The notes under the pieces were generated by a model that saw nothing but the letters and a program-made list of their open reading frames with translations, had not been told where the DNA came from and made no database searches. Shown one piece after another: positions 7,689 through 53,507 of a DNA stretch of 64,000 bases. This stretch comes from Gemmatimonadales bacterium (lineage in GTDB: Bacteria > Gemmatimonadota > Gemmatimonadetes > Gemmatimonadales > GWC2-71-9), in NCBI GenBank assembly GCA_036500345.1, contig DASYCE010000007.1, forward strand, positions 248,001 through 312,000, given 5' to 3'. The first letter of the stretch is position 1. The number at the start of each line of letters is the position of its first letter. The position numbers were made by a program, and so were the translations under genes.

Positions 7689-10492
<2,804 letters not shown>

Positions 10493-11738: not shown

Positions 11739-11745
11739 TCGCGGA

Positions 11746-12230: not shown

Positions 12231-12598
12231 AGCGATGGATCGGAATGATCGGCATCGTCGCCATCGTGGCGGCGTGCAGTGGTCTCCCTGCTTCCGACAA
12301 CGGCGTGGTGGCGCTGGTGGTCACGACGCCCGATTCGTTGAACCTCACCGTCGGCGACTCGCTCACGCTCCGAGCCCACGCGGAGAATCTTCAGGGCGAG
12401 ACGGTGCCGGCCGAGATCGAGTGGCGGACCTCGGATCCCACCCTCGTTTCGGTCGATGCCGCCGGCGTCGTCACCGCCCTGGTTGATACCGCGGCATCGG
12501 CGCACGTCCAGGCCACGGCCGGTGCGCTGGTGTCGAATATCGTGATCATCACGCTGCGTGACACCGCGACCACGGCCGGGCTCCGAGCCCGGCCGTGA
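12227..12598 (+). CDS. Small lipoprotein with bacterial Ig-like (BIG2) domain
   Basis: 123 residues. The N-terminus MKRWIGMIGIVAIVAACSG is a lipoprotein signal with lipobox VAAC, Cys at residue 17. One BIG2-like domain follows: LNLTVGDSLTLRAHAEN, IEWRTSDPTLVSVDAAGVVTAL, typical of surface and adhesive proteins. The protein should sit in the outer membrane facing the periplasm or surface. Its ATG overlaps the TPR stop, and its own stop overlaps the GTG of the acyl-CoA synthetase gene, so three functionally unlike genes are tightly coupled. Confidence 0.8.
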   Translation: MKRWIGMIGIVAIVAACSGLPASDNGVVALVVTTPDSLNLTVGDSLTLRAHAENLQGETVPAEIEWRTSDPTLVSVDAAGVVTALVDTAASAHVQATAGALVSNIVIITLRDTATTAGLRARP

Positions 12599-37161: not shown

Positions 37162-38138
37162 CGCCGCTCCTCGAGGTGTCCGACCTGCACGTCACGTTTC
37201 CGCGGACCGGCGCTGCTGCGCTGGAGCCGGTGGACGACGTGTCGTTCACTATCGAGCGCGGCGAACTGGTCGCGCTGGTCGGCGAATCGGGGTGCGGCAA
37301 GACGCTGACGGGGCTCGCGCTGCCGCGTCTCCTCCCGCGCGGCGCCGAACTCGGTCCCCGGACATCGATCCGTCTCGGCGGAGATGAACTCACTGCGCTC
37401 GATGAACGCGCATTGCGCCACTACCGCGGCCGCCGGATCGGGATGGTCTTCCAGGATCCGATGACCTCCCTCAATCCGGTGATGCGCGTTGGCGATCAGG
37501 TCGCAGAAGCGATTCACGCGCACGAAAAGGTGTCGCGGCGGGATGCCCGCGCTCGGGTGCTCTCGCTTCTGACCGAAGTCGGGATCGCCGATCCGCAGTC
37601 GCGCATTGATGCCTTCCCGCACCAGATGAGCGGCGGAATGCGGCAGCGTGTCCTTATCGCGATGGCGCTGGCGGCGGGGCCCGAGCTCCTCATCGCCGAC
37701 GAACCGACCACTGCGCTCGACGTCACGGTGCAGGCGCAGATTCTCGAACTCCTCGACCGGTTGCGCCAGAACCACGGAATGGCGGTACTGCTGATCACCC
37801 ACGATCTCGGGATCGTGGCTGGCCGAGCCGATCGCGTACTGGTGATGTACGCCGGGCGTATCGTCGAGTCGGCGCCGACGGCGCAGCTCTTCGCGCATCC
37901 GGCGCACCCGTACACGCAGGGTCTGTTCGCCTCGATCCCGCGGCTCGACGCCGGCGCCACACGGCTCACGCCGATCCGCGGCAGCGTGCCCCGCCCCGAT
38001 CAATGGCCTCCGGGGTGCCGATTCAATCCTCGCTGCCCGGTGGCTATCCCGCGCTGCACCGTCGAACGTCCGCCGCTCGACGAAGTGGCACCTGGCCAGC
38101 GCGCCGCCTGCTGGGTTGCACTCGCGGAGTCACGATGA
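37158..38138 (+). CDS. ABC transporter ATP-binding protein, DppD type
   Basis: 326 residues. Walker A is GESGCGKTLT (about residue 41), Q-loop IGMVFQDPMTSLNPVM, signature MSGGMRQRVLIAMALA, Walker B LLIADEPTTALDVTVQAQIL and H-loop ITHDLGIVAG. The C-terminal oligopeptide-transporter extension contains the cysteine cluster CRFNPRCPVAIPRC, which in DppD-type subunits binds an iron-sulfur cluster or metal. Its place in the operon before the DppF-type ATPase is canonical. Start ATG overlaps the DppC stop. Confidence 0.92.
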   Translation: MTPLLEVSDLHVTFPRTGAAALEPVDDVSFTIERGELVALVGESGCGKTLTGLALPRLLPRGAELGPRTSIRLGGDELTALDERALRHYRGRRIGMVFQDPMTSLNPVMRVGDQVAEAIHAHEKVSRRDARARVLSLLTEVGIADPQSRIDAFPHQMSGGMRQRVLIAMALAAGPELLIADEPTTALDVTVQAQILELLDRLRQNHGMAVLLITHDLGIVAGRADRVLVMYAGRIVESAPTAQLFAHPAHPYTQGLFASIPRLDAGATRLTPIRGSVPRPDQWPPGCRFNPRCPVAIPRCTVERPPLDEVAPGQRAACWVALAESR

Positions 38139-39139
38139 CAGCGCCGCTCGTGAGCGTGGAGCATCTCGTCAAGCATTTTCGTGGCGGCGCGATGTTCAGC
38201 CGCCAGGCGACGGTCAAGGCGGTCGAGGATGTCTCATTCACGATTGCCGCCGGAGAGACACTGGGACTGGTCGGCGAATCCGGGAGCGGCAAGACCACCG
38301 TCGGCCGCACGGTGTTGCGTCTCGAGCTTCCCACCGATGGCGTGGTGCGCTTCGATGGCGTCGATCTCGCGACGCTTGCGCCGCGTGACCTGCGCGCGTT
38401 GCGGCGACGGATGCAGATCATTTTCCAGGACCCGTTCGCGTCGCTCAATCCGCGGCGAACCGTCGGCGCGTCGGTCGCCGAAGGGATCGAGATTCACAAG
38501 CTCGCGCCCAAGCGCGAGATCCCGGCGATGGTCGGTCGGCTCCTCGAGGAAGTCGGCCTCGATCCGTCGTACGCCTCGAAGTACCCGCACGAATTTTCCG
38601 GCGGCCAGCGCCAGCGGATCGGTATCGCCCGCGCCCTCGCCGTTTCCCCGGCGTTCATCGTGTGCGACGAACCGGTGTCGGCGCTGGACGTGTCGGTCCA
38701 GGCGCAGGTACTCAACCTGCTCCTCGACCTCCGCGACCAGCGCGGCCTGGCGTACCTCTTCATTGCGCACGACCTGGCGGTGGTGCGGCAGATCGCCCAT
38801 CGCATCGCGGTGATGTACCTCGGGACGATCGTCGAGATCGGCGCAGCGCGCACGGTGATCGACACGCCACGCCACCCGTACACGCAGGCGCTTGTCTCCG
38901 CCGTGCCGGAACCCGATCCCGGCCGGGGGCGCGACCGGATCATTCTCGCCGGCGATCCGCCGTCACCCGCAGCGCCACCACCCGGCTGTCCCTTCGTGAC
39001 CCGGTGCTTTCATCCTCACAAGGATGAGCGTTGCGTCACCGAACGCCCGGTCCTCCGGCCGGTGGAAGGCCGCGACGTCGCCTGCCACTATGCCGAGATC
39101 GTCGCACCCGCCCATGCGAGTGCCACCACGCACGGATAG
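38135..39139 (+). CDS. ABC transporter ATP-binding protein, DppF type
   Basis: 334 residues. Walker A GESGSGKTTVG, Q-loop MQIIFQDPFASLNPRR, signature FSGGQRQRIGIARALA, Walker B FIVCDEPVSALDVSVQAQVL and H-loop IAHDLAVVRQ are all intact. The C-terminal extension has GCPFVTRCFHPHKDERC, the paired cysteine motif of these subunits. It partners the DppD-type ATPase in a heterodimer. It is the last transporter gene; the M61 peptidase gene starts 61 bases later behind its own likely promoter. Confidence 0.92.
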   Translation: MTAPLVSVEHLVKHFRGGAMFSRQATVKAVEDVSFTIAAGETLGLVGESGSGKTTVGRTVLRLELPTDGVVRFDGVDLATLAPRDLRALRRRMQIIFQDPFASLNPRRTVGASVAEGIEIHKLAPKREIPAMVGRLLEEVGLDPSYASKYPHEFSGGQRQRIGIARALAVSPAFIVCDEPVSALDVSVQAQVLNLLLDLRDQRGLAYLFIAHDLAVVRQIAHRIAVMYLGTIVEIGAARTVIDTPRHPYTQALVSAVPEPDPGRGRDRIILAGDPPSPAAPPPGCPFVTRCFHPHKDERCVTERPVLRPVEGRDVACHYAEIVAPAHASATTHG

Positions 39140-39167
39140 CAGATGCGCGTTTTTCGCGCCGCTGCTT

Positions 39168-39175
39168 TATTTTGC
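39168..39175 (+). promoter_or_regulatory. Possible -10 element of the M61 peptidase gene
   Basis: TATTTTGC in an unusually AT-rich patch (CTTTATTTTG), 25 bases before the start codon. Its form TAnnTT matches the other -10 candidates in this window. No -35 is clear. Confidence 0.4.
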
Positions 39176-39200
39176 GCCGTCCCTCACATCACTGGCTTCC

Positions 39201-41120
39201 ATGCGCTCTCGCCTCGCCGTTGTCGCGTCCTTCGTTGCGGCCTTCGCCGTGCCGCACACTTCCCTGCTCGCTCAACTTCATCCGGTGACATGTTGCAACA
39301 AGGGACCGGTGATCGTCTACGACATCTCGTTCCCCAATGCGATGCACCATGAAGCGAACGTCAAGGCGACCTTCACGGCGCTCCCCGCGACGCCGGTGAA
39401 TTTCCGGATGGCGCGATCGTCGACCGGCCGGTACGCGCTGGCCGAGTTCTCCAAGAATGTTCATTCGGTGACGGCGGTGAACTCGAAGGGGAAGGCGTTG
39501 GCGGTAACCCATCCTGATCCGTACAGCTGGACCGTCTCGGGCCACGACGGCACCGTGACGCTCAGCTACGTCGTCTACGCCAATGTCGGCAGCGGGACGT
39601 ACCCCGGGTTCAATCCGGAGCAGGAGCATATCCAGCCGCAGGGGACCTTCGTCTACGTGAAGGGTCTCGAGGCGCGGCCGATCCGGGTGACCTTCCATCG
39701 TCTCGATCCGTCGTGGACCATCGCGACCCAGCTGGTGCCGACGAAGGATTCCGAGACGTTCACCGCACCGGGAATGCAGTACCTCTTCGATTCGCCCACG
39801 CACCTCGGCAACCTGCAGTGGCGCGAATGGACCGAGACCCACGACGGCGTGAAGCAGACGTGGCGCGTCTCGCTCGACGATCCGACCGGGCCGCAGGCGA
39901 TCGATGCCTACGCCGAAGGCGCCCGCAAGATCGTGCATGAGGCCGGTGCCGTGTATGGCGAATTCCCCAAGTTCGACTACGGCACCTACACCTTCGTTGC
40001 CTGCTATCGCTCCGACTGCCAGAGCGACGGGATGGAGCATCGCAATTCCACCAGCGTGACAGGCAACAGCATGAATGGCAACGGCGTCGCCGGGCTCAGC
40101 ACCCTGGCGCACGAGTACTTCCACTCGTGGAACGTCAAGCGGATCCGCCCCAAGGGAATCGAGCCGTTCGACTACGACCGCGCCAACATGACCGACGGTC
40201 TCTGGATCGCCGAAGGATTCACGCAATACTACGGTCCGCTCCTCGAAGAACGCGCCGGCGTCACGCAGCCGCCCAACACAATCCGCGGACTCGGCAACAC
40301 CATCAACGCGGTGGCGAATTCGCCGGGCCGGCTCTACTTCGGACCGATCGGGATGAGCAACCAGGCGCCGTTCCGCGATGGCGCCGCTGCCGCCGACGCG
40401 CCCAATCCCAACACGTTCATTTCGTATTACACCTACGGCGCCGGCATCGCGATCGCCCTCGACTTCTCGCTGCGCGCCAAGGGGAAGTCGCTCGACGACT
40501 TCATGCGCACCATGTGGCTCGACTTCGGCAAGCCCGAGATTCCCTACTCGATGCACGACGCCCGCCATGCGTTGATCACGACGTCGGGTGACTCCGCATG
40601 GGCGGTCGACTTCTGGACGCGCTACGTCGAAGGACACGATCTCCCCGACTATGCGACGCTGCTCGACCGCGCCGGGATCATCGTGCGGAAGAGTGCGGCA
40701 GGGCAGCCGTGGATCGGCGGGGGAGTCGGTGCCGGATTCGGTGGTCGCGGCGGACGTGGTGGCGGTCGTGCCGGCCGTGGCGGTGCCGCCGTCGCGCCGG
40801 GCGATACCACCGCGCGCGTGTCCAGCGCACCTGCGAACTCGCCGCTGTACGCCGCCGGCCTCGACGTCGGTGATGTGATCACCAGCGTCGACGGGAAGAC
40901 GATCGCATCGAGCGGTGAGTTCGATGCTGCGCTCACGGCGCACAAGCCTGGCGACCGGATGAGCGTGACCTACACCAACACCGCCGGTCAGAAGAGCACC
41001 ACGATCACCATCGGCGAAAATCCGGCGCTGCAGACGGTCACCTACGAGGATGCCGGGCGCACGCCGTCGGCGGAGCAGCTGGCGTTCCGCAACGCGTGGC
41101 TCGCCTCCAAGGCGAAATGA
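39201..41120 (+). CDS. M61-family (glycyl aminopeptidase-type) metallopeptidase with PDZ domain
   Basis: 639 residues, exported (signal peptide ending near HTSLLAQ, residue 25). The zinc site HEYFHSWNVKRIRP is at His304-His308, with the downstream glutamate in WIAEGFTQYYGPLL (about 337). The N-terminal beta domain and middle helical domain follow the M61 layout. Between the catalytic part and the C-terminal PDZ domain (about 545-620: SPLYAAGLDVGDVITSVDGK) lies a Gly/Arg-rich linker (506-531). M61 enzymes trim N-terminal glycine or process peptides in the periplasm, which suits the peptide importer upstream. I chose the ATG at 39201 by the signal peptide. Its stop overlaps the next ATG. Confidence 0.9.
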   Translation: MRSRLAVVASFVAAFAVPHTSLLAQLHPVTCCNKGPVIVYDISFPNAMHHEANVKATFTALPATPVNFRMARSSTGRYALAEFSKNVHSVTAVNSKGKALAVTHPDPYSWTVSGHDGTVTLSYVVYANVGSGTYPGFNPEQEHIQPQGTFVYVKGLEARPIRVTFHRLDPSWTIATQLVPTKDSETFTAPGMQYLFDSPTHLGNLQWREWTETHDGVKQTWRVSLDDPTGPQAIDAYAEGARKIVHEAGAVYGEFPKFDYGTYTFVACYRSDCQSDGMEHRNSTSVTGNSMNGNGVAGLSTLAHEYFHSWNVKRIRPKGIEPFDYDRANMTDGLWIAEGFTQYYGPLLEERAGVTQPPNTIRGLGNTINAVANSPGRLYFGPIGMSNQAPFRDGAAAADAPNPNTFISYYTYGAGIAIALDFSLRAKGKSLDDFMRTMWLDFGKPEIPYSMHDARHALITTSGDSAWAVDFWTRYVEGHDLPDYATLLDRAGIIVRKSAAGQPWIGGGVGAGFGGRGGRGGGRAGRGGAAVAPGDTTARVSSAPANSPLYAAGLDVGDVITSVDGKTIASSGEFDAALTAHKPGDRMSVTYTNTAGQKSTTITIGENPALQTVTYEDAGRTPSAEQLAFRNAWLASKAK

Positions 41121-41926
41121 GCGCGCGCGAGTACGACCTCCACCTGATTGACGCCTTCGCCGACGGTCCCTTCGCCGGCAATCCCGCGGCGGTCGTCCTC
41201 GTGGACGCGCCGCCGCCGGATCGGTGGATGCAGCAGCTGGCGATGGAGATGAATCAGGCGGAGACCGCCTTCCTCCTTCCCCAGGACGATGGGTACTCGC
41301 TGCGGTGGTTCACGCCGCGAAGCGAAGTCGATCTCTGCGGCCATGCGACCCTCGCCAGCGCGCACTACCTCTGGGGTCAGGGGATTCTTTCCCCCGATGA
41401 TACCGCCCGCTTTCAGACCCGAAGCGGCCTCCTCACTGCGACGCATTCGAAGGACGGCATCACCCTCGATTTCCCGGCAATCGCGTCGACGCCGGTGGCG
41501 ATGCCGCACGATGCAGCGCGAGTGTTGGGCGGTGAAGTCGTGGAAGCGATGCACGGAGGATTCACGGTGATTTGCCGTCTCGGATCCGCAGCGCAGGTGC
41601 GCGATTGCAGCCCCGACCTCGGCGCAATCACGAGCTGGAATCCGAAGGGTGGCGTCGTGGTCACCGCGCTGAGTGATCGGGAGGGGATCGACTTCATTTC
41701 CCGGTGCTTTTTCCCGGCGCTCGGCGTGCCGGAGGATCCGGTCACCGGGTCGGCGCACTGCGTCCTCGTGCCGTACTGGCATCGGCAACTGGGAAAGACG
41801 GCGTTGACCGCATACCAGGCGTCGTCCCGCGGGGGAACGCTTCGCTGCGAATTGCGCGGCGAGCGCGTGACATTGACCGGCCGGGCCGTCACGACTATGC
41901 GCGGAAAGGTTGCCGCGGCCCGCTAG
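41117..41926 (+). CDS. PhzF-family isomerase/epimerase-like protein
   Basis: 269 residues with the two-lobed PhzF fold. Landmarks: HLIDAFADGPFAGNPAAVVL at the N-terminus, the catalytic glutamate in MNQAETAFLLP (about 47), RWFTPRSEVDLCGHATLASA, and the C-terminal EDPVTGSAHCVLVPYW. Members isomerise or epimerise small acids, as PhzF does in phenazine synthesis, but most are of unknown substrate. No phenazine genes are nearby. The ATG overlaps the peptidase stop (ATGA), and the gene ends 4 bases inside the converging lipoprotein gene. Confidence 0.9.
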   Translation: MSAREYDLHLIDAFADGPFAGNPAAVVLVDAPPPDRWMQQLAMEMNQAETAFLLPQDDGYSLRWFTPRSEVDLCGHATLASAHYLWGQGILSPDDTARFQTRSGLLTATHSKDGITLDFPAIASTPVAMPHDAARVLGGEVVEAMHGGFTVICRLGSAAQVRDCSPDLGAITSWNPKGGVVVTALSDREGIDFISRCFFPALGVPEDPVTGSAHCVLVPYWHRQLGKTALTAYQASSRGGTLRCELRGERVTLTGRAVTTMRGKVAAAR

Positions 41927-42687
41927 TTCGTCGGCTTGGCTCCCTGCGGAAGGCCGAGAAGGAGTCGGCGGACCACGCCGAGCAGTTCATTGTCGCGATT
42001 GACCAACTCGATGCGCCGGACCGACCGCCCTTCGGCGGCAATCCAGAGCCGGGTGCGCACCGGCCCGATGTCGGCGCTCACTACCCACAATTCGCGGCCC
42101 GCCATGTCGGGACGCTCCTGCATGTCCATCTCGGTCTGGACCTCGAAACGCAGCCACTCCCATCCCCGCGGCGCGGTGTCGACCACCACCGGTATCAACC
42201 CGTGATATCCGCCTCCCAATGGCATCGATGCGATGACCAGCTCCATGCCGAGCGCGGAGTACGGTTCGACATCTTCGGTTTCGATCCGGCGCGTCGTCGA
42301 TCCGTTGATTGATCGGAAGATCCGCTCGACCACCCGCCGGTTGTAGTGGACGATATACGTCCCTTTGTTGGTCCATCGCCATGTCGCAATCGGCCGCAGC
42401 GTCGTCCGGTCGAGAAGCACCGAGTCGCCCGTCATCCGTTCACCGGTGGTGAAATGACGAACCTGCTGAAGCATGACGCGGCCACCGATGTGGACAATGT
42501 CGATCGCAATCGACCCTTCCGGCGCCGACGCGTCATCATCCTTGATCTTGGTAGTCAGCCAGCCGACACTCGGCTTGACGCGCCCGCCGACCGGTTCGGG
42601 CGGTGCGTCGTCGTACGGCAGGCTCATGCCGATGGTGCTGCACGCCGACAGCACGACGAGTGCAGGGACGACTGTACGCGCCCACAT
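41923..42687 (-). CDS. Lipoprotein of unknown function
   Basis: 254 residues from the ATG at 42687. The signal MWARTVVPALVVLSACST has a lipobox LSAC, so mature Cys16 is lipidated. The rest is predicted mainly beta, with segments such as GSIAIDIVHIGGRVMLQQVR, RPIATWRWTNKGTYIVHYN and RELWVVSADIGPVRTRLWIA. The layout resembles DUF3108-like or LolA/LolB-like beta sheets that handle lipids, but I cannot assign a family. I chose this start over an ATG 18 bases upstream because a TACCCT box lies 5 bases before it, as in other leaderless genes here. Confidence 0.7.
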   Translation of the reverse strand: MWARTVVPALVVLSACSTIGMSLPYDDAPPEPVGGRVKPSVGWLTTKIKDDDASAPEGSIAIDIVHIGGRVMLQQVRHFTTGERMTGDSVLLDRTTLRPIATWRWTNKGTYIVHYNRRVVERIFRSINGSTTRRIETEDVEPYSALGMELVIASMPLGGGYHGLIPVVVDTAPRGWEWLRFEVQTEMDMQERPDMAGRELWVVSADIGPVRTRLWIAAEGRSVRRIELVNRDNELLGVVRRLLLGLPQGAKPTN

Positions 42688-42692
42688 TCTCA

Positions 42693-42698
42693 AGGGTA
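42693..42698 (-). promoter_or_regulatory. Probable -10 element of the 41.9-42.7 kb lipoprotein gene (leaderless)
   Basis: TACCCT on the minus strand, 5 bases before the ATG at 42687. It fits the TAnnnT-N5-start pattern; no -35 box is seen. Confidence 0.4.
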
Positions 42699-42863
42699 CA
42701 ATCAAGGCAACTGGTCTCCCGGTCCTGGGCTATCAGGACGGTAGCGGCCACTGGTGGCACGGCACCTGTATCGTTGGGGCAGCGCCAAACAATAACCACG
42801 GCGCCCCGCTTCACCCACTGGCGGGAAGCTTAACCCGCACCGCGCGGAATCGTCCTAGAAAGC

Positions 42864-44570
42864 ATGAGAATCCGCATCGAGTTCCTGGTCGTCGGGCTTG
42901 CCGCCGGAATCGCTATTCCGACGGCCGCGCAGGCGCCGATGACAACCCGGGATTCCGCCCGGCACGTCCTGAACCGTCTGGCCTATGGTGCCACTACCGA
43001 TGAAGTCGATCAGGTTATTCACGAAGGTGTTCTCAAATGGGTCGACCGCCAGCTCGGATTTGCCGACGTCCACGATCCCGCGCTGACGACCGGGGAAGCC
43101 CGCTTTGATGTCCTGCACGAATCCAATGATGACATGCAGGCGCTCCTGCAAAAGACCCAGGCACGAAATGCGCAAGTACAGTCGATCGGCGATTCAGTCG
43201 AACGCCAGCAGGCGATGGACCAGTTGCGCGCCGAACAGCGGGGCGATCGTCGTTCGCTCGCCGTTCTCGATAATCAACTCGCTGCACTGGTGGTGGTTCG
43301 CGCTGTAGCATCCGATCACCAGCTCGACGAAATCCTTTGCGATTTCTGGACCAACCATTTCAACGTTTTCATCAACAAGGGCCAGGACCGCGCCTATTTC
43401 GCCGATTATCTCGAGCACACCATTCGCGCTCGCGCCCTCGGCCGGTTCGAGGATCTTCTTCTCGCCACCGCCCGCAGTCCCGCCATGCTCTTCTATCTCG
43501 ACCAATCCGAGAGCGTGGCCGACGCCAGCGCCACAAGGATGGCACCAGGCGGGCGGCGGATCGCGATCAACGGCCGCCCAGGATTCGGGCGAGGGCGACC
43601 ACTCTTCCCCGACCCTCGCCCGGGCGTCTATCCACCGCCATCGGGGACCGGCGCGGCAGCCACCGCGACCCGCCAGCAGGTTGCCCCGCGGGCGCCCCGC
43701 GGACTCAACGAGAATTACGCCCGCGAGCTGATGGAGTTGCACACCCTCGGCGTCGACGGCGGCTACACCCAGCAGGACGTGATCAATGTGGCGCGGATCC
43801 TCACCGGGTGGGGGATCGATCGCCGCGATGCATCGTTCACTTTCCGCGCAGCGGCGCATGACGAGGACGCCAAGACCGTGATGGGCCAGCCGTTCGACGC
43901 AGGCCACGGCGAGGACGAAGGGGTCCGCCTGCTCAAGATGCTGGCCACGAGCCCCGCGACGATGCATCACGTCAGCGCACAGCTCTGCGCCCGGTTCGTG
44001 AACGATGTGCCGCCCGATGGCTGCATCGACGACGCGGTCCAGGCATGGAAAAAGAGTGGTGGCGAAATCCGGGACGTCGTTCGCGCCATCATCCGCTCGC
44101 CGGATTTCTGGGCCTCCGCCAACGTGCAGAGCAAGGTCAAGACGCCGCTGGAGTTCGTCGCGAGCGCTGTGCGGGCGGTCGGTGGCGTTCCGGATTCCAC
44201 GCCGCGACTCGCACAACGAGTCGCGCAGCTTGGCGAGCCGCTCTTTCAGCATCAGACCCCCGACGGCTATGGCGAACGCCAGGAGGACTGGGTCAACAGC
44301 GGAGCGCTTCTCGCCCGGATGAACTTCGCGGTCCAGCTCGCCAGCGGCCGGGTCGCCGGCGTTGCGGTTGATCTCGACCGGGTTGTCTCCGCGACTGACG
44401 ATCACGCGGCGTTGGTGACCGCGGTGGATCACGCCATCCTCGGCGGCGCGATGACCGCACAGACCCGGCAGACGATTCTGAAGGAACTCGCCGACGTCCC
44501 TGATCCGCGCGCGGCTCGCGCACTCGCGGTCGGATTGGCCATCGGCGGCCCCGAATTCCAGCGCCAGTAG
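42864..44570 (+). CDS. DUF1800 family exported protein
   Basis: 568 residues with a signal peptide (AAGIAIPTAAQA). DUF1800 landmarks: HVLNRLAYGATTDEVDQVI, ILCDFWTNHFNVFINKG, LNENYARELMELHTLGVDGG and DVINVARILTGWG, with helical repeats after them. The function is unknown; DUF1800 and DUF1501 genes are commonly paired, as here, and are thought to act at the envelope. A Pro/Gly/Arg-rich insert of about 50 residues (about 222-278) interrupts the usual sequence just before LNENYARELMELH. The next gene starts 24 bases downstream. Confidence 0.88.
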   Translation: MRIRIEFLVVGLAAGIAIPTAAQAPMTTRDSARHVLNRLAYGATTDEVDQVIHEGVLKWVDRQLGFADVHDPALTTGEARFDVLHESNDDMQALLQKTQARNAQVQSIGDSVERQQAMDQLRAEQRGDRRSLAVLDNQLAALVVVRAVASDHQLDEILCDFWTNHFNVFINKGQDRAYFADYLEHTIRARALGRFEDLLLATARSPAMLFYLDQSESVADASATRMAPGGRRIAINGRPGFGRGRPLFPDPRPGVYPPPSGTGAAATATRQQVAPRAPRGLNENYARELMELHTLGVDGGYTQQDVINVARILTGWGIDRRDASFTFRAAAHDEDAKTVMGQPFDAGHGEDEGVRLLKMLATSPATMHHVSAQLCARFVNDVPPDGCIDDAVQAWKKSGGEIRDVVRAIIRSPDFWASANVQSKVKTPLEFVASAVRAVGGVPDSTPRLAQRVAQLGEPLFQHQTPDGYGERQEDWVNSGALLARMNFAVQLASGRVAGVAVDLDRVVSATDDHAALVTAVDHAILGGAMTAQTRQTILKELADVPDPRAARALAVGLAIGGPEFQRQ

Positions 44571-44594
44571 CGCAGCATCACAGGAGGAGTTCAC

Positions 44595-45842
44595 ATGCCC
44601 ATCTCTCGACGCGCATTCATGAAAGCCGGCGGCCTCGCACTGCTCTCCCTCGGCGCCGATCCCATTTTCCTCGATCGCGCTGCGTACGCGCTCGGACGTT
44701 CGGGCCGCCGGATCGCCGGCAGGAAGACGCTGGTATGCCTCTTTCAGCGCGGAGCCGTCGACGGCCTCTCGATGATCGTGCCGGCGGGAGACAGCTGGTA
44801 CTGGCAGGAACGGCAGCGGATCGCGCTGCCGAAGGAACAGCTGATCCCGCTCGATGGCATGTTCGCCTTGCACCCGCGTCTCGCGCCGCTCAAGCCGCTC
44901 TGGGATCAGCACAACATGGCGATCGTCCACGCGGTCGGGTCGCCGTCGACGACGCGCTCGCATTTTGACGCGCAGGATTACATGGAATCGGGGACACCCG
45001 ACGTCAAGGCGACCCCCGACGGCTGGGCCAACCGGTATTGTGCCCACGCGGAGGAACATGCCAACACGCCGTTCCGGGCAGTCGCGTTCGGACCGCAACT
45101 TCCCCGAACCCTCGCGGGGAGTGCACCGTCGCTTGCAATCGATGACCTCCGCACCTTCGGCCTTCGCGCAGCACAGGCCGGCGGCGAACAGAAATTGACG
45201 CGCGCATTCGAGGAGCTCTATCAGGGAGCGGCGACCGGACTGGTGGCATCGTCGTCGGCCGAAAGCTTCGAAGCAATTCAGATGCTGAAGAGCGCGAATC
45301 CCACGTCCCTTCCGCCATCCAACGGCGCCGTCTACAGTCGCACCAAGCTCGCCACTTCGCTCAGCCAGATCGCGCAGCTGATCAAGGCCGATCTCGGGCT
45401 GCAGATCGCGTTCGTGGATGTGGGTGGCTGGGATACTCACGTCAATCAGGGGTCCGACCAGGGACAGCTGGCGTCGCGACTCGACGAGCTGTCCGGTGCG
45501 CTGGGTGCATTCACCACCGATCTCGGCGCCCGGATGCGCGACGTCGTCCTGATCACCATGAGTGAGTTCGGGCGGACGGTCAAGGAAAACGGCACCAGCG
45601 GCACCGATCACGGCCATGGGACGGCGATGATGGTGCTGGGCGGTGAGGTGAAGGGCGGGCAGGTGTACGGGCGGTGGCCCGGGCTCGCGCCGGACCAGCG
45701 CTACGAGGGACGTGATCTCGCTGTCACGACCGACTTCCGGTCGGTCTTCAGCGAGGTGATCCAGGGGCACCTCGGGCCGATCGACGTTTCGCAGGTCTTC
45801 CCAGGGTTCGCGCAGCCGGCTAAGGTAGGTCTCTTCGGCTAA
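44595..45842 (+). CDS. DUF1501 family protein, Tat-exported
   Basis: 415 residues. The N-terminus MPISRRAFMKAGGLALLSLG is a twin-arginine signal (SRRAFMK), so it is exported folded. DUF1501 features are TLVCLFQRGAVDGLSMIVPA, HAVGSPSTTRSHFDAQDYME, FVDVGGWDTHVNQG and MSEFGRTVKENGTSGTDHGH, resembling the alkaline phosphatase / sulfatase fold with metal-binding His and Asp. Substrate unknown. A strong AGGAGG site (44582-44587) precedes the ATG. Paired with the DUF1800 gene and followed by two propeller lipoproteins and a TonB-dependent receptor. Confidence 0.9.
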   Translation: MPISRRAFMKAGGLALLSLGADPIFLDRAAYALGRSGRRIAGRKTLVCLFQRGAVDGLSMIVPAGDSWYWQERQRIALPKEQLIPLDGMFALHPRLAPLKPLWDQHNMAIVHAVGSPSTTRSHFDAQDYMESGTPDVKATPDGWANRYCAHAEEHANTPFRAVAFGPQLPRTLAGSAPSLAIDDLRTFGLRAAQAGGEQKLTRAFEELYQGAATGLVASSSAESFEAIQMLKSANPTSLPPSNGAVYSRTKLATSLSQIAQLIKADLGLQIAFVDVGGWDTHVNQGSDQGQLASRLDELSGALGAFTTDLGARMRDVVLITMSEFGRTVKENGTSGTDHGHGTAMMVLGGEVKGGQVYGRWPGLAPDQRYEGRDLAVTTDFRSVFSEVIQGHLGPIDVSQVFPGFAQPAKVGLFG

Positions 45843-45853
45843 CAGAACTGCCT

Positions 45854-46972
45854 ATGACAGCGCGCCCGTCTTGTTCGGCATGCCTGATCCTCGCGGTGCT
45901 CGTGGGTACCGCGTGCAGCCATTCCTCGAGCGAACTGCCGAACCCTCCCAGCGTCGGTCCGTCGGGTAGCGGCCCCGACGTCCGTCTCACGGTCAACGCC
46001 GAGCAGGACTACTGACCGGCATGGACCGCCGACGGCCAGGGAGTCCTCTACTCGTTCGTCAACCAGGCGCCAGACAATCGTCATCGGTGCATTGGACTTC
46101 TCCCTGCGGCGGGTGGTACGAGGATCTGGGAGCTCTGTGACAATCGTGGCACCGAGGTCGACTCGATCAACTCGTTCCCTGCATACGCGCTCGCGGCCGA
46201 CGGGCGCCTTCTGTACGTCGAAGCCGAAGCACCGTCGGGGCCACAGTCGCTGAACCCGGCCAGTTCCACGCTGTGGCTCGCCGATACCGCGGCTCCGTTC
46301 GCTCGTCGCGCACTGGCAACACTCCCTGTCGTGGTCGACGGTCAACGGGTTGACTGGCTCGTCGATCTCAACTGGACCAGCCCGACCGAATTCACGGCTC
46401 TGGCAGCGGAATACGGCGCCAATATCCACTGCAAGGGATGCACGACATTCGACTCGATCTTTACCGGCGTCGCGGTGCTGCACGGATCGATCGGTGCCAG
46501 CGGCGCATCGCTGACGCTCGTCCCGGGGACCGATGGCGCGAGCAACTATTCGAATGCGGACGGCGGGGCGTCCATCGTTTTTTCGCGACACGCTGATCCC
46601 CACCTCTACAAACTCCCGGCGGTCGGCGGCATCGCGAACGCGATTGCGGCGGTGGGCAGCGATTCGTTGCTCGGCGTCTCGTGCCAGGGCAGCACGTGCG
46701 TCGTCGCCGAGGATCCAGTGACGCTGATCCCTGTGACTGCCCTGGTCGCATTTGTCGGCACCACGGTGAACCCCGGCAAACTCTGGTCGGTATCGCTGGT
46801 CACAGGCGCTACCAACGTCGTGCGGTCCGATCCCTCGGCTGTCCTCGCCACACCATTGCTCTCGCCGTCAGGGCACGACGTTGTTGCCCAGCGCGGCGGA
46901 CTCCTGGGTCACCTGCGCACCGATTCATCACCGAGCGCGGACCTGCATCTCTTTCCCGGACTGATTCCATGA
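45854..46972 (+). pseudogene. Propeller lipoprotein interrupted by one in-frame TGA
   Basis: Reading from the ATG at 45854 gives a lipoprotein signal (AVLVGTACS) and 53 codons, then TGA at 46013-46015; the same frame stays open to the stop at 46972. Its neighbour at 47142 is a clear paralog. At the same place that gene reads INPEQDYWPTWTADG where this one reads VNAEQDY, stop, PAWTADG, so a TGG tryptophan codon has become TGA. After the stop the protein remains well conserved: CIGLLPAAGGTRIWELCDNR, HCKGCTTFDSIF, GVSCQGSTCVV, HDVVAQRGGLLGHLRTDSS. With one lesion and no frameshift it is either a very young pseudogene, a read-through gene, or a sequence error. TGA is a normal stop in surrounding genes. 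Confidence 0.85.
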
Positions 46973-47048
46973 TGCCGGTGTCGGCGACGGTCCGACAGAT
47001 TGCCGATTGTCATCGCCATCGATCATTTGCGACCGTTTCAATTCGGGT

Positions 47049-47056
47049 TACCTTGA
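47049..47056 (+). promoter_or_regulatory. Possible promoter of the second propeller lipoprotein gene
   Basis: TACCTTGA, with TTTG 19 bases upstream (47026-47029). This resembles the Bacteroidetes-type TTTG / TAnnTTTG promoter. It lies 85 bases before the GTG start. Only this candidate has the paired upstream box. Confidence 0.35.
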
Positions 47057-47141
47057 AAGTTCCGGACGACTACTGAGTCACGCTTCGAGTGCCGCGTGAG
47101 TGCTACGTGCGCACCATGGAGTCTTCCATGGCGAAGATCCT

Positions 47142-48242
47142 GTGAGAGTACCTGGACCAACCGCCCTCTGGCTCACGACGCTGGTTGCGCTGGCCTCCTG
47201 CGGCCACTCGGTTGCCGATTTTCCGTCCCCTCCCGCGTCGGGACCCTTCAATTCCGCAGCCGACATGCGGCTCACCATCAATCCCGAGCAGGATTATTGG
47301 CCCACGTGGACGGCGGACGGCCACGGGATTCTCTATTCGTTCATTGCACAGGTCCCGGGCTCGGAGCATCGCTGCCTCGGCATCCTCCCGGCTGCGGGGG
47401 GAACGAGGGTCTGGGAATTCTGCGATAACCGCGCCGCAGAATCGGACTCACTCAACTCGTTCGCCGCGTACGCGCTCGATAACGCCGGACAGCTCCTCTA
47501 CGCCGAATCCGAATCGCTGGACAGCCCGCAGCGGCTGAATCCCGGATCGTTCACCCTCTGGCTCGCGGATACCGCGAATCCGTTGCAACGCCGGGCGCTT
47601 CTCACCCTGCCGATGCCGCTCGGAGGCGTGTCGATGGCGTGGCTCGCCGATATCGCCTGGACCGGTCCAGCCGAATTCACGGCACTCGCCCAGACCTTCG
47701 ACGGCGCGGTGCACTGCAAGGGATGCGTGATCTTCGACTCGCTGTTCGGCGGGATCGGCGTGGTCCGCGGGACGATCGGTCCCAGCGGCGCGACGCTCGC
47801 ACTGATCGCGGGAACCGAGGGCGCCAGCGGTTATTCGTCGGCGGAGAGCGGATCATCAATCGTCTTCACCAAGCCCGGCAATCCCGGCCTGTTCAAGGTT
47901 CCGGCGGGCGGTGGCACCGCTATCACCGTGACGCAGGTAGGCGCAGGCGCGGAACTCCTCGGTGTGTCGTGCGTGGGCTCAACCTGCGTTGTTGCCACCG
48001 ACCCGATCGCTGACGTCGCGTTCATCGGCACCGCAGGCAATCCGGCCACGCTTCGCGCCGTGTCATTGGCGACAGGTGCCAGTCAGATCGTCTTCAGTGA
48101 CCCTCTCGCCGTTGTTGCGACGCCCGAGATCTCTCCGGCCGGCCACGATGTCGTCGCGCAGCGGGGCGGGGTGTTCGGCCATCTGCGCACGGTCTCGTCG
48201 CAACTCTCCGACCTGCACCTCTTCCCGGGACTGCTGCCATGA
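47142..48242 (+). CDS. Propeller-like lipoprotein, intact paralog
   Basis: 366 residues. The signal VRVPGPTALWLTTLVALASCGH has the lipobox LASC. The mature protein has TolB/PD40-like blade sequences (RLTINPEQDYWPTWTADGHG, ILYSFIAQ; VAFIGTAGNPATLRAVSLAT), suggesting a beta-propeller. Cysteines are conserved with the upstream paralog: CLGILPAAGGTRVWEFC, HCKGC and GVSCVGSTC, likely disulfides since the protein is outside the cytoplasm. The stop overlaps the start of the TonB-dependent receptor (ATGA), so it probably works with that receptor as a surface or periplasmic substrate-binding partner. I chose the GTG at 47142 by the signal peptide. Confidence 0.8.
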   Translation: MRVPGPTALWLTTLVALASCGHSVADFPSPPASGPFNSAADMRLTINPEQDYWPTWTADGHGILYSFIAQVPGSEHRCLGILPAAGGTRVWEFCDNRAAESDSLNSFAAYALDNAGQLLYAESESLDSPQRLNPGSFTLWLADTANPLQRRALLTLPMPLGGVSMAWLADIAWTGPAEFTALAQTFDGAVHCKGCVIFDSLFGGIGVVRGTIGPSGATLALIAGTEGASGYSSAESGSSIVFTKPGNPGLFKVPAGGGTAITVTQVGAGAELLGVSCVGSTCVVATDPIADVAFIGTAGNPATLRAVSLATGASQIVFSDPLAVVATPEISPAGHDVVAQRGGVFGHLRTVSSQLSDLHLFPGLLP

Positions 48243-51076
48243 ACTCACCGATGCGATCGATCGACCGGCGGTTCGGCATCTGCGGAATATCGCCTCGACG
48301 TTGTGCCGCGGTGCTTGGTGCCGTGTTCGTCGCAGTGAGTCATGCCGCTCCGCTCGCAGCACAGAGTACCGGCGGCATCGTGGGGCAGGTCGTCGACGCC
48401 ACCAACGAACATTCGATCCGCGGTGTCGACATCCGGCTCGATGGCATGCGATTCACCACCACGACCGATTCGGCTGGCCAGTATCGGCTGCGGGCCATTC
48501 CGTCCGGGATGCATTCCCTCACCGTCCTGCGTCCCGGGTATCGCCCCGAGCATCGCGACAGCATCCAGGTCATCTCCGGTGAGGTGACGCGTGTCGATGT
48601 ACGACTCGCTCCGCAAGCCGTGCAACTCGCCGACCTCCGCGCCGTGGGCGTGCAGGACCCGGTGCTCGATCCCCTCGCGACCGCCACCGAACAGCGGATC
48701 ACCGCCGATCAGTTGCGCCGTCTCCCCGTCACCAATCTGCAGGATGCGATCGCGATGCAGGCCGGTGTCGTTGGTGAAAGTTTCCGCGGCGGCCGGCCCG
48801 GCGAACAGGCGTTCGTGCTGGACGGCTTCGGGATCAAGAACCAGCTCGACGCGTCGACCAACGGGAGCGCGGCGATCCAGATCCCGCCCGACCTGATCGT
48901 GTCGGCGTCGCTCATCACCAACGGATATTCGGCGCGCTACGGGCAGGCGATCTCCGGGGTCGTCGACGTCACGACGATGGACGGCGGACCGGTGTGGCGC
49001 GGCCGCACGGCGTACGAAACCGATCGACCGCTCGCCGGCGGCGCCGATCACGGCATCGACCGGATCGTGTTCCAGGCGGACGGACCGATCGGCAAGAAGA
49101 TTCGCGCCGTCGGCATCCTCGACCTCAACGGCCAGCTCGACGGCGACCCGTCGTCCGCGCCGGCCCCGTCAGATACGCTCGACCCACGGTCATCGACGCC
49201 CTACCCGCTGCCGCACAGCAGCACCGAAACGTGGACCGCCGGCGGGAAGCTGACGATTCCCTTCAGCGACCGCCTCACCGGGCGGCTTTTCGGCCTGGCA
49301 ACGACGCAGCAGGCGTATCTCTACGATCCGATGTACAAGTACGATCCGAATGACGGACCGGGGAGCCGCACCAACGGCAAGCTGCTCACCGCGCACCTGC
49401 AGATGTTGCCGCCGTCGCAGAATCACACCCCGCTCTGGGGGGATCTCCGCGTCGGCTATTCAGACAAGTCGTTTGTCCGCGGCGAGGTCGCCGCGCCCGA
49501 TTACGCCTTCGGTGCGTTCACCGGCAAGACGATGCACATCCTCGACGAGGAGATCGCGAAACGGCAGGACACCATTTCGACCCGCGCGGCGCTCCCCGAT
49601 TTCGGTACGCCGCAGTTCGCGTCGAACACGCCGTGGGGCGTTCCCGCCTTCTTCCAGAGCGGCGCCGGCAGCGGCGAACTGGCGTGGAACGATTTCTCCG
49701 AGCTCCGTTCGCAACTCGATGCGACCCTGGGGCTGGGGCGTTACGTCGATCTCGCATTCGGCGGCATGTACGCGGCACAGAGCGTCAAGACGTTCCAGCG
49801 GGTGCTCTCGTACCTCCCCGTCGGTGACTCCGTTCCACCGCCCACCGCGTCAAACTTTTCGCCGTGGGTCTCCGGCGCGTATGTCGAGGGTCAGGCGCGT
49901 GCTTCGGATCTTGGATTCACCGCGGGATTGCGATACGACGGCTTTGCGCCGGGCACCGACCTGCACAACGCCACGCTCAACGCGCGCTCGACCCTGAGTC
50001 CACGCGTCGCCGTATCGACCCAGGTCAAGGGAGCGACCTTCGTCGCGTCGATCGGCAAGTTCTCGCAGCCACCCGACCTGCAATACCTCGTCGATGCTGC
50101 CTTCGACGACACCACCCGCACCGGCCGCTTCCGTCAGGGAAACCCCAACCTCGGCTTCGAGTCGGCGACGCAGTACGAAATGAGCGCGCGGGTCCGGCTG
50201 CCGAGCGGGAATTCGCTCAAGATCAACATCTACGACAAGCACCTCGACGGACTGGTTGCGTCCGTCCCGATCAACGTGAATCCCGATTCATCGGTCTTCG
50301 TCAACGCCGATGTCGGCACGGTGACCGGCGCCGAACTAATCTTCGAACGCGAGTTGCACGATGGCTGGGGAGTTCGCGTCTCGGGCGTTGTGCAGCGCGC
50401 CGAGGCGACGGTCAGCAATGCATTCCTGATTTACGATCAGACCCACATCAATCCGATCACCGGCGACACCGTCCCGCCGTCGCGCGCCCAATTTCCGCTC
50501 GACTACGACCGCCGGCTGGCGATCACGGCGGTCGTCACCGGCGAGATCTCGCAGCACAGCCGTTTCAGCATGTTCGGCGTCCGTCCGTTGGCCGGACTGC
50601 AGATGTCGGCCGTCGGACGCTACTACACCGGCTTGCCGTACACCCGCACCAATACCGCCGGAGATTCGCTGACCGGGCCGATCAACGGCAGCCGGCTGCC
50701 GAATCAGTATTCGATCGACGCGCTCTTCCGCCGGCCGATGCGTGTCGGCAAGTTCGACGGCAGCATCTACCTCGACATGCGCAATCTGCTGAACACGCAG
50801 AATCAGACCAGCGTGCGTCGCGACACTGGCACCCCGACGCCCGACGACGCGACCGTCGCCGCGCTGGCGATGAAGGCGTACCTCGCCAACCCGAATCCGA
50901 TCCCTTACGAATCGCCCCGATACCGCGCGTGGGCCGACAAGAACGGCGACGGCCTGTTGTCGGGCCAGAGCGAACTGCTGCCATTGTACACGCGTGCCGC
51001 GACCGACTTCACCTTCCCGCTCTTCGTCTACGGTCCGCCCCGGCTGGTGCGATTTGGCGTGGAGCTGCTCTTCTAG
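48239..51076 (+). CDS. TonB-dependent receptor with N-terminal carboxypeptidase-regulatory-like domain
   Basis: 945 residues. A signal peptide (VLGAVFVAVSHAAPLAAQ) is followed by a CarboxypepD_reg-like domain (GGIVGQVVDATNEHSIRGVD, TTDSAGQYRLRAIPSGMHSL), then the plug (LRRLPVTNLQDAIAMQAGVV, FVLDGFGIKN, GYSARYGQAISGVVDVTT) and a large barrel ending in RFGVELLF, with the C-terminal Phe needed for outer-membrane assembly. It imports a ligand across the outer membrane using TonB energy. A calcium-loop-like DKNGDGLLSGQSE lies near residues 900-912. The ligand is unknown; the coupled upstream lipoproteins are the best clue to it. Confidence 0.9.
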   Translation: MNSPMRSIDRRFGICGISPRRCAAVLGAVFVAVSHAAPLAAQSTGGIVGQVVDATNEHSIRGVDIRLDGMRFTTTTDSAGQYRLRAIPSGMHSLTVLRPGYRPEHRDSIQVISGEVTRVDVRLAPQAVQLADLRAVGVQDPVLDPLATATEQRITADQLRRLPVTNLQDAIAMQAGVVGESFRGGRPGEQAFVLDGFGIKNQLDASTNGSAAIQIPPDLIVSASLITNGYSARYGQAISGVVDVTTMDGGPVWRGRTAYETDRPLAGGADHGIDRIVFQADGPIGKKIRAVGILDLNGQLDGDPSSAPAPSDTLDPRSSTPYPLPHSSTETWTAGGKLTIPFSDRLTGRLFGLATTQQAYLYDPMYKYDPNDGPGSRTNGKLLTAHLQMLPPSQNHTPLWGDLRVGYSDKSFVRGEVAAPDYAFGAFTGKTMHILDEEIAKRQDTISTRAALPDFGTPQFASNTPWGVPAFFQSGAGSGELAWNDFSELRSQLDATLGLGRYVDLAFGGMYAAQSVKTFQRVLSYLPVGDSVPPPTASNFSPWVSGAYVEGQARASDLGFTAGLRYDGFAPGTDLHNATLNARSTLSPRVAVSTQVKGATFVASIGKFSQPPDLQYLVDAAFDDTTRTGRFRQGNPNLGFESATQYEMSARVRLPSGNSLKINIYDKHLDGLVASVPINVNPDSSVFVNADVGTVTGAELIFERELHDGWGVRVSGVVQRAEATVSNAFLIYDQTHINPITGDTVPPSRAQFPLDYDRRLAITAVVTGEISQHSRFSMFGVRPLAGLQMSAVGRYYTGLPYTRTNTAGDSLTGPINGSRLPNQYSIDALFRRPMRVGKFDGSIYLDMRNLLNTQNQTSVRRDTGTPTPDDATVAALAMKAYLANPNPIPYESPRYRAWADKNGDGLLSGQSELLPLYTRAATDFTFPLFVYGPPRLVRFGVELLF

Positions 51077-51086
51077 GAGAACACCG

Positions 51087-51938
51087 GTGCGCGTTGGCTG
51101 GCGGAGCAGGTGGATCGCCACCTGCTCCTTCACTGTTGTTCTCTCCGGCGCGTGTCGTGGCGGCGCTCACCCGCCGGTCGTGGCTGCGGCCGCCGACTCG
51201 ACGCTCCGCGCACCCGATGGATCGGTGCCTGCGGACGACGCGGTCGGTCACAGCATCCGGCGCGGCGCGGCGATCATGGCCGCGACGCGTGATTCGCTCC
51301 CCGCGCACGTCGGCAGCGCCCTCCGATGTTTTTCCTGTCATCTCGGCCGTGGAACCGATACCGCCGCGCTTCCGCTGACTGGTGTCTACGCGCGCTTTCC
51401 GCAATATCGCTCGCGGTCCAATCGCGTCGAGCTCATCGAGGACCGGATCAACGACTGTTTTCAGCGATCGCTGAACGGCACGCCGCTGGCACTTGACGAC
51501 CCCGCCATGCACGACATCGTCGCGTTCCTCGCCTTCGAGTCGCGCGGCATCCAGGTCGCAACCGGTACACCAGGGAACACGATCGACCCGCCGCACGGCG
51601 ACACACTGGCCGGGCGCGAGCGCTATCGCGTCAGCTGCGCGCGCTGTCACGGACCCGAGGGCGCGGGCAATGCGATCTATCCGCCGGTCTGGGGGGCGCA
51701 GAGTTTCAACATTGGGGCGGGAATGGCCCGGTTGGGCACCGCGGCCGCGTTCATCCGGCGCAACATGCCGCGCGACAGCACCGGTGTATTGACCGATCAG
51801 GAAGCGGCAAATGTCGCGGCGTACATCGTGTCGAGGCCGCGTCCGGATTTTCCGGGGAAGGAGCACGACTGGCCCCGCGGCGACGCGCCGGCGGATGCGC
51901 CGTATCCACTGCTCGCCGGCCATGGGACCGGGCCCTGA
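51087..51938 (+). CDS. TsdA-like diheme cytochrome c
   Basis: 283 residues with an N-terminal export signal (a lipoprotein form is possible at GACRGG). Two heme sites are seen: CFSCH (81-85) and CARCH (184-188). The sequence between and after them matches thiosulfate dehydrogenase TsdA: TGVYARFPQYRSRSNRVELI, EDRINDCFQRSLNG, and later YPPVWGAQSFN, NMPRD and LTDQEAANVAAYI. Cys124 in INDCFQRS corresponds to the cysteine that ligates heme 1 in TsdA. Whether it oxidises thiosulfate or serves another redox role cannot be told. GTG start with AGGAGA 6 bases upstream. It depends on cytochrome c maturation, as encoded by ccmE. Confidence 0.85.
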   Translation: MRVGWRSRWIATCSFTVVLSGACRGGAHPPVVAAAADSTLRAPDGSVPADDAVGHSIRRGAAIMAATRDSLPAHVGSALRCFSCHLGRGTDTAALPLTGVYARFPQYRSRSNRVELIEDRINDCFQRSLNGTPLALDDPAMHDIVAFLAFESRGIQVATGTPGNTIDPPHGDTLAGRERYRVSCARCHGPEGAGNAIYPPVWGAQSFNIGAGMARLGTAAAFIRRNMPRDSTGVLTDQEAANVAAYIVSRPRPDFPGKEHDWPRGDAPADAPYPLLAGHGTGP

Positions 51939-51980: not shown

Positions 51981-53507
51981 TCACCCTGCCGTTTCCGACT
52001 GCGCCAGCATCCGCTTGATCGGATTCACCAGCAGCGCAAGGATGACGGCGAAGATGAGCGCATAGGTCGCAACACCGCCAAAGAGCGTCGGAAGCGAGAA
52101 CTTCTCGTACACGCCGGCGACGCGGCCGCCGATGAAATTCCCGACCGAATCTGCCAGGAACCAGACCCCCATCATCAGCGACGCGACTCGCTTCGGCGCC
52201 AGCCGCGTCATCGCCGACAATCCCACCGGGCTCAACGACAGTTCGCCGGCAGTGGCGAGGAAGTAACTGCTCATCAGCCACCACCACCCTACCCGGTGGC
52301 CGCCATTGGCGAGCACTGCGGCCGGCACCATGATGTAGAACGACAACGCCACCAGCAGCAGGCCGATTGCGAATTTCGCCGGGCTCGATGGATTGCGCCG
52401 CCCGAGCCAGACCCAGATCCACGCGAAGACCGGCGCCAGCACGACGATCCACCCCGAGTTGATCGACTGCCACCAGCTCGATGGGAATTCGTGGCCGAAG
52501 ACCGAATTGCGAGTGCTGTTCTGGGCGAAAAGCGTCAGCGTCGACCCGGCCTGCTCGAATACCGACCAGAAGACCGCGGCACCGAGAAAGAGCACCAGGA
52601 TCACGACCAGCCGCCGTCGTTCCTCCGGCGTCCAGTTTGCGCTCAGAAAGAGCCATGCGAAGAAGACCACGACCAGGACGAGGAGACCGACGCCGAAGAT
52701 GTTCGACACCGACGTGGTCGTGAGAGCGATGACTCCTGCGGCCTGAAGCCCGCAGACGATCACGAGGGCGGCGGCGACGCCCGTCAGCGATCGCCACAGC
52801 TTCCGCTTCGCGATGACGGCATCCTCCGGCGACGTCACCGCGGGATGGAGTCCCGCTTCACCCAGTGATTTCCGGTCGACCACGTACCAGATCAGCCCCA
52901 GGAACATCCCCACCGCGGTGGCGCCGAACCCCCAATGCCATGATGTCTCGGGGCGGATCCCCCAGCTGCTCAGCGTCGCCCGCCACCCTTCGCTCTGCGC
53001 CAGATATCCGACGACCAGCGGCGAAATCATCGCGCCGAGGTTGATTCCCATGTAGAAGATCGAGAAACCGGCGTCGCGGCGTTCGTCTTCCGGCGCGTAC
53101 AGCTGGCCGACCATGGTCGAGATGTTCGGCTTGAGCAGGCCGACCCCGATCACGATCAGCACCAGGCCGAGATAGAAGGAATTGATCGAAGGGACAGCGA
53201 GTGAAATGTGCCCGAGCATGATGATCACGCCGCCCCAGAACACCGACTTGCGCGCGCCGAGGACGCGGTCCGCGATCCAGCCGCCCGGCAGCGCCAGCAG
53301 GTAGACCATCGAGGTGTACACCCCGTATACTGGACCGGCCTTGGCCGGCGTCCACCCGAACCCGCCGGCGGCGATCGGCGCGGTCATGAACAGTACGAGG
53401 ATCGCGCGCATGCCGTAGTACGAGAACCGCTCCCACATCTCGGCGAAGAAGAGCGTGCGCAAACCGGCTGGCTGGCCGAAGAATCCCGTCTGCGGAGCCT
53501 GATTCAC
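51981..53507 (-). CDS. POT-family proton-dependent oligopeptide transporter
   Basis: 508-residue major-facilitator protein with about 14 membrane helices. The proton-coupling motif ExxERFxYYG is present as EMWERFSYYGM (23-33). The PTR2 signature region reads GGWIADRVLGARKSVFWGGV and GVGLLKPNISTMVGQLY, and FSIFYMGINLGAMISPLV is also typical. It takes up di- and tripeptides with protons across the inner membrane, which complements the dpp-type importer. The start overlaps the stop of the coiled-coil gene by 4 bases, so the two are cotranscribed. Confidence 0.93.
   Translation of the reverse strand: MNQAPQTGFFGQPAGLRTLFFAEMWERFSYYGMRAILVLFMTAPIAAGGFGWTPAKAGPVYGVYTSMVYLLALPGGWIADRVLGARKSVFWGGVIIMLGHISLAVPSINSFYLGLVLIVIGVGLLKPNISTMVGQLYAPEDERRDAGFSIFYMGINLGAMISPLVVGYLAQSEGWRATLSSWGIRPETSWHWGFGATAVGMFLGLIWYVVDRKSLGEAGLHPAVTSPEDAVIAKRKLWRSLTGVAAALVIVCGLQAAGVIALTTTSVSNIFGVGLLVLVVVFFAWLFLSANWTPEERRRLVVILVLFLGAAVFWSVFEQAGSTLTLFAQNSTRNSVFGHEFPSSWWQSINSGWIVVLAPVFAWIWVWLGRRNPSSPAKFAIGLLLVALSFYIMVPAAVLANGGHRVGWWWLMSSYFLATAGELSLSPVGLSAMTRLAPKRVASLMMGVWFLADSVGNFIGGRVAGVYEKFSLPTLFGGVATYALIFAVILALLVNPIKRMLAQSETAG

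Follow-up and report, generated by a model that had tools for sequence, protein, structure and literature searches.

Which genes in a compact bacterial gene run belong together, and what would they do? We address this question for a locus in a 64,000-nucleotide stretch of a Gemmatimonadales genome (contig DASYCE010000007.1, positions 248,001 to 312,000; hereafter the window), where six plus-strand genes lie within 9 kb. They encode a DUF1800 protein, a DUF1501 protein, two propeller lipoproteins (LipoA and LipoB), a TonB-dependent receptor, and a TsdA-family cytochrome. An earlier note, made from the sequence alone, had read the run as a single outer-membrane module whose receptor imports a ligand bound by the lipoproteins. 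Open reading frame positions bear out all six genes at their places, and Pfam families identify all but the two lipoproteins. The run is real, but it is not one intact unit: LipoA is interrupted, and the run is layered. Its core consists of LipoB and the receptor. Our analysis suggests that these related Gemmatimonadota possess a lid-assisted nutrient importer of their own, comparable to those known from gut Bacteroides. The genome that contains the window comprises 3.32 Mb in 32 contigs and is 96.45% complete.

Co-occurrence and adjacency of lipoprotein and receptor

LipoB-family lipoproteins and the receptor occur in the same genomes. Among 61 genomes surveyed, the receptor is present in 29 (threshold E 1e-60), and the LipoB family is present in 29, the window's own genome included. 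Presence is concordant in 59 of the 61: 28 genomes carry both, 31 carry neither, one carries only the receptor, and one carries only the lipoprotein (Fisher test, P = 4e-15). The lipoprotein-only genome is G021 (a fragment), and the receptor-only genome is G033, whose receptor is distant (31% identity). Among 27 genomes from other genera of the same family, 12 have both, one and one have a single partner, and 13 have neither (P = 1e-5).

The two genes are also physically linked. In 25 of the 29 receptor genomes, the lipoprotein gene is the immediate 5′ neighbour of the receptor gene; 22 of these have a readable junction, and in three the receptor is cut at a contig end. The remaining four comprise two loci split by contig ends (G006 and G040), one non-adjacent arrangement (G031), and the distant receptor of G033. 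The start/stop overlap reported for the window is confirmed as an ATGA, and the same 4-base overlap is seen at 19 of the 22 readable junctions (15 called by script and four by eye, start codons being candidates).

A search of 298 genomes from the phylum yielded 19 further stretches around LipoB-family matches. The receptor follows the lipoprotein in every stretch with a clear family member and enough contig (14 of 14, from 14 genomes). The other five are two cut at a contig end (G247 and G040), two of G031 without a receptor, and one of G064. Recurrence of the pairing in other genomes, on which the earlier note had staked its reading, is thus found, and co-occurrence and adjacency together strongly support treating the propeller lipoprotein and the receptor as partners that form the core of the run.

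Related arrangements are seen elsewhere. In G064, from another family of the class, a PD40-like propeller lipoprotein lies directly 3′ of a receptor with 32% identity (L159 7683-9125), giving a similar pair in reversed order. NHL and PD40 propeller proteins also lie close to receptors of this type that are more distant (L099 352-1512; L046 3400-6014); the N terminus of the L099 NHL protein, which is divergent from its receptor, is lipobox-like.

The lipoprotein family, the receptor, and a putative importer

LipoB matches no Pfam family (E 0.01), the propeller family DUF4374 included, for which Pfam holds a model, and no NCBIfam family. The window's genome has five LipoB-family members. In a public contig collection, LipoB alone as query found 0 loci, and a closer alignment found five. 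The predicted propeller fold is supported by several lines of evidence. An AlphaFold2 model of moderate confidence (pLDDT 74.3, pTM 0.77) aligns with lactonase, Pizza6, NHL, and TolB propellers at a VIA-align Z of about 20, TolB ranks first in a Foldseek search with the model, and the family profile matches Pizza and TolB chains. LipoB is thus predicted to be a TolB/NHL-like beta-propeller. Its best VIA-align rows are propellers of six-bladed kinds, a blade count that is only tentative for LipoB at a model pLDDT of 74.3. The listed fold matches do not include BtuG or XusB, an absence that excludes nothing.

LipoB has a lipobox-like ALASC (by eye), a lipoprotein signal. Nine columns are invariant in 33 aligned family members, including C20, H22, C78, and C94. 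The label “cysteine-rich” given to these propellers is only modestly apt: LipoB has six cysteines beyond the predicted lipid cysteine, and of these only C78 and C94 are invariant.

A signature of the family lies at the predicted lipid cysteine, where all 44 members read have C-x-H or C-H. This count holds partly by construction, as member starts were picked near the C-x-H motif; the alignment agrees. A PF-type pair usually follows, and many members, LipoB included, are without it. The longer pattern C-x-H-x-x-P-F has 36 sites in four genomes (G000, G004, G009, and G028), versus 29 for the reversed pattern. Thirty of the 36 were read, and five of these follow a lipobox-like N terminus, all in LipoB-family members; of the six left unread, one (G004:C8) is by position a LipoB-family member. 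Because the lipobox-placed sites read were confined to the family, the motif looks family-specific, and we rejected it as a general lipoprotein-export signal.

Receptors are preceded by one to six lipoprotein copies in tandem. In a tree of 44 members, LipoA and LipoB group together (100/100), and the tandem copies of G004 fall into sister pairs. This pairing indicates that the lipoprotein duplicates within lineages. The largest array, at L055 (G004:C1) 5554-12251, has six tandem propeller lipoproteins ahead of one receptor.

The earlier note counted two propeller lipoproteins. LipoB is indeed intact; in LipoA, an in-frame TGA had been overlooked, because of which the gene as sequenced encodes just 53 residues. 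Apart from the stop, LipoA is intact: it has no frameshift, a coding-type base composition, and, relative to LipoB after the stop, a dN of 0.31 and a dS of 1.34. Thus, the stop would be either a recent nonsense mutation or an assembly error, and LipoA either a copy on its way to loss or one hit by such an error. Two other explanations were rejected: recoding of TGA as Trp, as LipoB and the cytochrome both terminate in TGA, and a long-dead pseudogene, given the lack of frameshifts and the dN and dS values.

The receptor has the Plug and outer-membrane beta-barrel expected of a TonB-dependent receptor (PF07715, 6e-8; PF14905, 2e-7), the barrel match being weak, together with a CarboxypepD_reg domain (PF13620, 2e-15). 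It scores 33 bits against the SusC/RagA model TIGR04056 (cut-off 368.25), over residues 48-191 only, and thus falls outside that family. Its best sequence match in the PDB is 9gbc_A (E 6e-6, residues 40-200), in an alignment that spans the N-terminal domain and the start of the plug. This chain is XusA, the receptor partner of a propeller lipoprotein (PMC13142918).

On balance, we think it probable, if only just, that LipoB and the receptor constitute a two-part, lid-assisted outer-membrane importer like BtuG/BtuB or XusB/XusA. LipoB would be anchored via its N-terminal cysteine and a short conserved linker (C-x-H, usually then the PF-type pair). The propeller would sit on the receptor as a capture lid, bind a small ligand, and pass it on to the barrel for import driven by TonB, the role that BtuG plays for BtuB and XusB plays for XusA. 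The CarboxypepD_reg domain, the XusA match, and the near-strict pairing fit the lid-assisted uptake of BtuBG and XusAB. The linker may serve as a docking element on the receptor. In BtuB2G2, the linker between the lipid cysteine and the propeller of BtuG2 is held by the barrel (PMC10404256), and a similar contact would explain the conservation right after the cysteine in the LipoB family. The lipoprotein duplicates in tandem, giving one to six copies per receptor. A fuller version is possible, although we hold it at less than even likelihood: that this is a Gemmatimonadota importer in its own right, with a lineage-specific, TolB-like, probably six-bladed lipoprotein, a C-x-H..PF docking linker, and one to six interchangeable copies per receptor that are duplicated or discarded as ligands change.

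Several points weigh against an importer of this kind. The genomes compared are related rather than independent, so the co-occurrence P values overstate the association. The G031 receptor lacks an adjacent lipoprotein, with two family members located elsewhere, and several genomes carry LipoB-family members away from any related receptor. Pairing in cis is therefore not obligatory. The domain behind the XusA match is a common one, and a structural model of the receptor was poor (pLDDT 32.3, from a five-row alignment) and was discarded. At gathering thresholds, neither the window nor 24 related loci contain an Rfam RNA, and hence there is no sign of control by a B12 riboswitch. Surface exposure of LipoB and its contact with the receptor are inferred.

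The leading alternative, which we nevertheless consider unlikely, is that LipoB is turned toward the periplasm and assists the receptor from the inner side, in the manner of a TolB-like factor for assembly, energy coupling, or ligand acceptance. Its closest profile and fold matches include TolB, a periplasmic protein, and the invariant C78/C94 pair suits the periplasm as well as the surface. A signal for surface export of lipoproteins is not established here for this phylum. However, the lipoproteins described as co-encoded with receptors are surface lids (PMC10404256, PMC13142918), and the six-copy tandem expansion in G004 would fit ligand capture better than housekeeping.

Neighbouring genes and the nature of the ligand

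Features of the locus and its flanks are listed in the table.

Table. Features of the lipoprotein-receptor locus and its flanks, in window coordinates.
Feature	Position	Strand	Remarks
PhzF-family protein, upstream neighbour	41096-41926	+	belongs to older syntenic block
Protein without Pfam or NCBIfam family, divergent neighbour	41923-42705	-	kept in genus
DUF1800 protein	42864-44570	+	PF08811, E 1e-125, 420.6 bits vs gathering score 26.1
DUF1501 protein	44595-45842	+	PF07394, E 6e-33, 114.9 bits vs gathering score 27
LipoA, propeller lipoprotein paralog with one in-frame stop	45854-46972	+	
In-frame TGA of LipoA	46013-46015	+	aligns to TGG (Trp) of LipoB
LipoB, intact propeller lipoprotein	47142-48242	+	start GTG; alternative GTG 47100
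LipoB codons C20-G21-H22	47199-47207	+	predicted lipid Cys and C-x-H family signature
ATGA, LipoB stop/receptor start overlap	48239-48242	+	
TonB-dependent receptor, N-terminal CarboxypepD_reg domain	48239-51076	+	Pfam; PDB match 9gbc_A
TsdA-family two-haem cytochrome, start GTG	51087-51938	+	Pfam SoxA/TsdA domain; A. vinosum TsdA match
POT/oligopeptide:H+ symporter, convergent neighbour	51981-53507	-	same place in G000, G001, G003, G008, G009

The genes on either side of the core appear to be accessory layers. In the genus, the DUF1800 and DUF1501 genes are at the locus in eight of ten genomes, while G003 and G007 have the receptor and cytochrome without the DUF pair there. The cytochrome is near the receptor in nine of ten, and G002 runs out of contig. 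Outside the genus, DUF1501 exceeds the cut-off in 5 of 19 receptor genomes versus 22 of 32 without a receptor, and TsdA (E 1e-40) likewise occurs in 5 of 19 versus 22 of 32. As neither follows the receptor there, both are local additions: the DUF pair and the cytochrome joined the locus in this genus and are probably not importer parts. The proposal that the DUF1501 enzyme or the cytochrome processes the imported ligand is therefore unsupported. The window's DUF1501 is the sole match to that family in its genome. It begins MPISRRAFMK, which is Tat-like, and the DUF1800 protein has a Sec-type signal peptide (both by eye). A DUF1800/DUF1501 pair, with a Tat motif and of unknown function, has been described beside bacterial chitin synthases (PMC5122149).

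The cytochrome itself is clearly assigned by sequence to TsdA, of the thiosulfate dehydrogenase/tetrathionate reductase family. It shares with Allochromatium vinosum TsdA (4wqc) overall similarity (phmmer E 8e-51, residues 40-257), two CXXCH haem sites (CFSCH and CARCH), and the positions of the axial ligands, Cys in INDCFQRSLNG and Met in RRNMPRD (hand-counted as Cys96 and Met209). In TsdA, Cys96 is the axial ligand of haem 1 and Met209 that of haem 2 (PMC6879331). At AvTsdA position 208, it has Asn rather than Lys, like the TsdA of Campylobacter jejuni (PMC6879331), which acts as a tetrathionate reductase (PMC5146829).

The receptor stop occupies 51074-51076, and the 10-base gap before the cytochrome (51077-51086) holds provided that GTG 51087 is the cytochrome start. 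Promoter and terminator scans gave counts near or below those of shuffles, with no terminator-like site between LipoA and LipoB, and a plasmid collection search gave no match. Oligopeptide-type ABC ATPases and an M61 peptidase lie upstream of the locus (window 36666-41120).

Hints to the ligand from neighbouring genes disagree: a BtuF-like protein points to a metal chelate, peptidases and the POT symporter to peptides, and TsdA with a TauE/SafE-type gene to sulfur compounds. We weakly favour the first. In family f3, of the same order, a BtuF-like PF01497 protein is encoded directly upstream of the lipoprotein at five of five loci (L041, L042, L043, L063, and L064). The ligand might therefore be a metal chelate such as a corrinoid, haem, or siderophore, an assignment we offer tentatively and would not call probable. 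Against it, no signal peptide is evident by eye in the BtuF-like protein, and a search of loci in family f1 did not turn it up.

Rather less plausible is the import of oligopeptides by a locus for peptide use. The POT symporter and M61 peptidase adjoin the locus, an M28 peptidase closely precedes the lipoproteins in G003, G004, G005, and G007, and M1, S9, or S15 peptidases are adjacent in other genera (M1 and S9 named by eye). However, these genomes may just be rich in peptidase genes, and the peptidase type varies between clades. In several genera, comparable positions are taken by PhzF, M1, S9, the half-size TauE/SafE gene, and POT, a pattern that resembles inherited synteny. PhzF is near the pair in other genera, and POT with the half transporter in one other genus, a recurrence that points to an old syntenic block.

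A sulfur module, in which the receptor imports a sulfur compound handled by TsdA and the TauE/SafE-type half transporter, is very improbable. TsdA is downstream of the receptor in the genus, a 119-residue TauE/SafE-type gene (PF01925) lies 3′ of the receptor in eight of ten genus genomes, and rhodanese/MBL and thioredoxin-reductase-like neighbours occur in other genera. However, outside the genus TsdA shows no positive association with the receptor, and the half transporter is missing at the locus in the window and in G006; further TauE matches in the window's genome lie on different contigs. Furthermore, ions as small as thiosulfate and tetrathionate should have no need of a TonB-dependent receptor. 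Finally, mere vertical inheritance of gene order, with two genes of unrelated jobs, is scarcely credible: synteny of the flanking block extends across several genera, but the pair stays together while other neighbours change (families f1 and f3), and both genes are jointly absent from the 31 genomes with neither.

Comparison with known systems

If LipoB and the receptor do form a lid-assisted importer, the lid principle arose or spread beyond Bacteroides, a protein family that neither Pfam nor NCBIfam models gains a role, and nutrient uptake becomes more open to study in bacteria known here solely from metagenome-assembled genomes. Arrays of up to six lipoproteins beside one receptor would also let the exchangeability of lids be asked. 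A literature search, with most subscription papers and all preprints outside its scope, found no lipoprotein-receptor pair reported in Gemmatimonadota.

TonB transport assisted by propeller lipoproteins has been described for Bacteroides (PMC10404256, PMC13142918). LipoB shares with the BtuG and XusB lids a lipoprotein signal and a gene beside that of a TonB-dependent receptor. In the BtuG/BtuB system for vitamin B12 uptake, a propeller lipoprotein is likewise co-encoded with the receptor (PMC10404256). LipoB differs in having no Pfam family, and a riboswitch was not found in the window or the 24 loci. The best matches of LipoB are six-bladed kinds. BtuG2, in contrast, is seven-bladed (PMC10404256). 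The XusB/XusA system for xenosiderophore uptake also combines a propeller lipoprotein with a receptor, the latter being the best PDB match of ours; XusB, however, is a seven-bladed DUF4374 propeller (PMC13142918), a kind of family assignment that LipoB lacks in Pfam. No gene like the PepSY-type XusC is among the neighbours annotated around LipoB and the receptor. The SusC/SusD systems and utilisomes of Bacteroidota (PMC7618045) differ through their receptor family, given the low TIGR04056 score reported above, and LipoB, again, has no Pfam family. They nevertheless share with our locus a receptor with a lipoprotein partner, and several lipoproteins per receptor.

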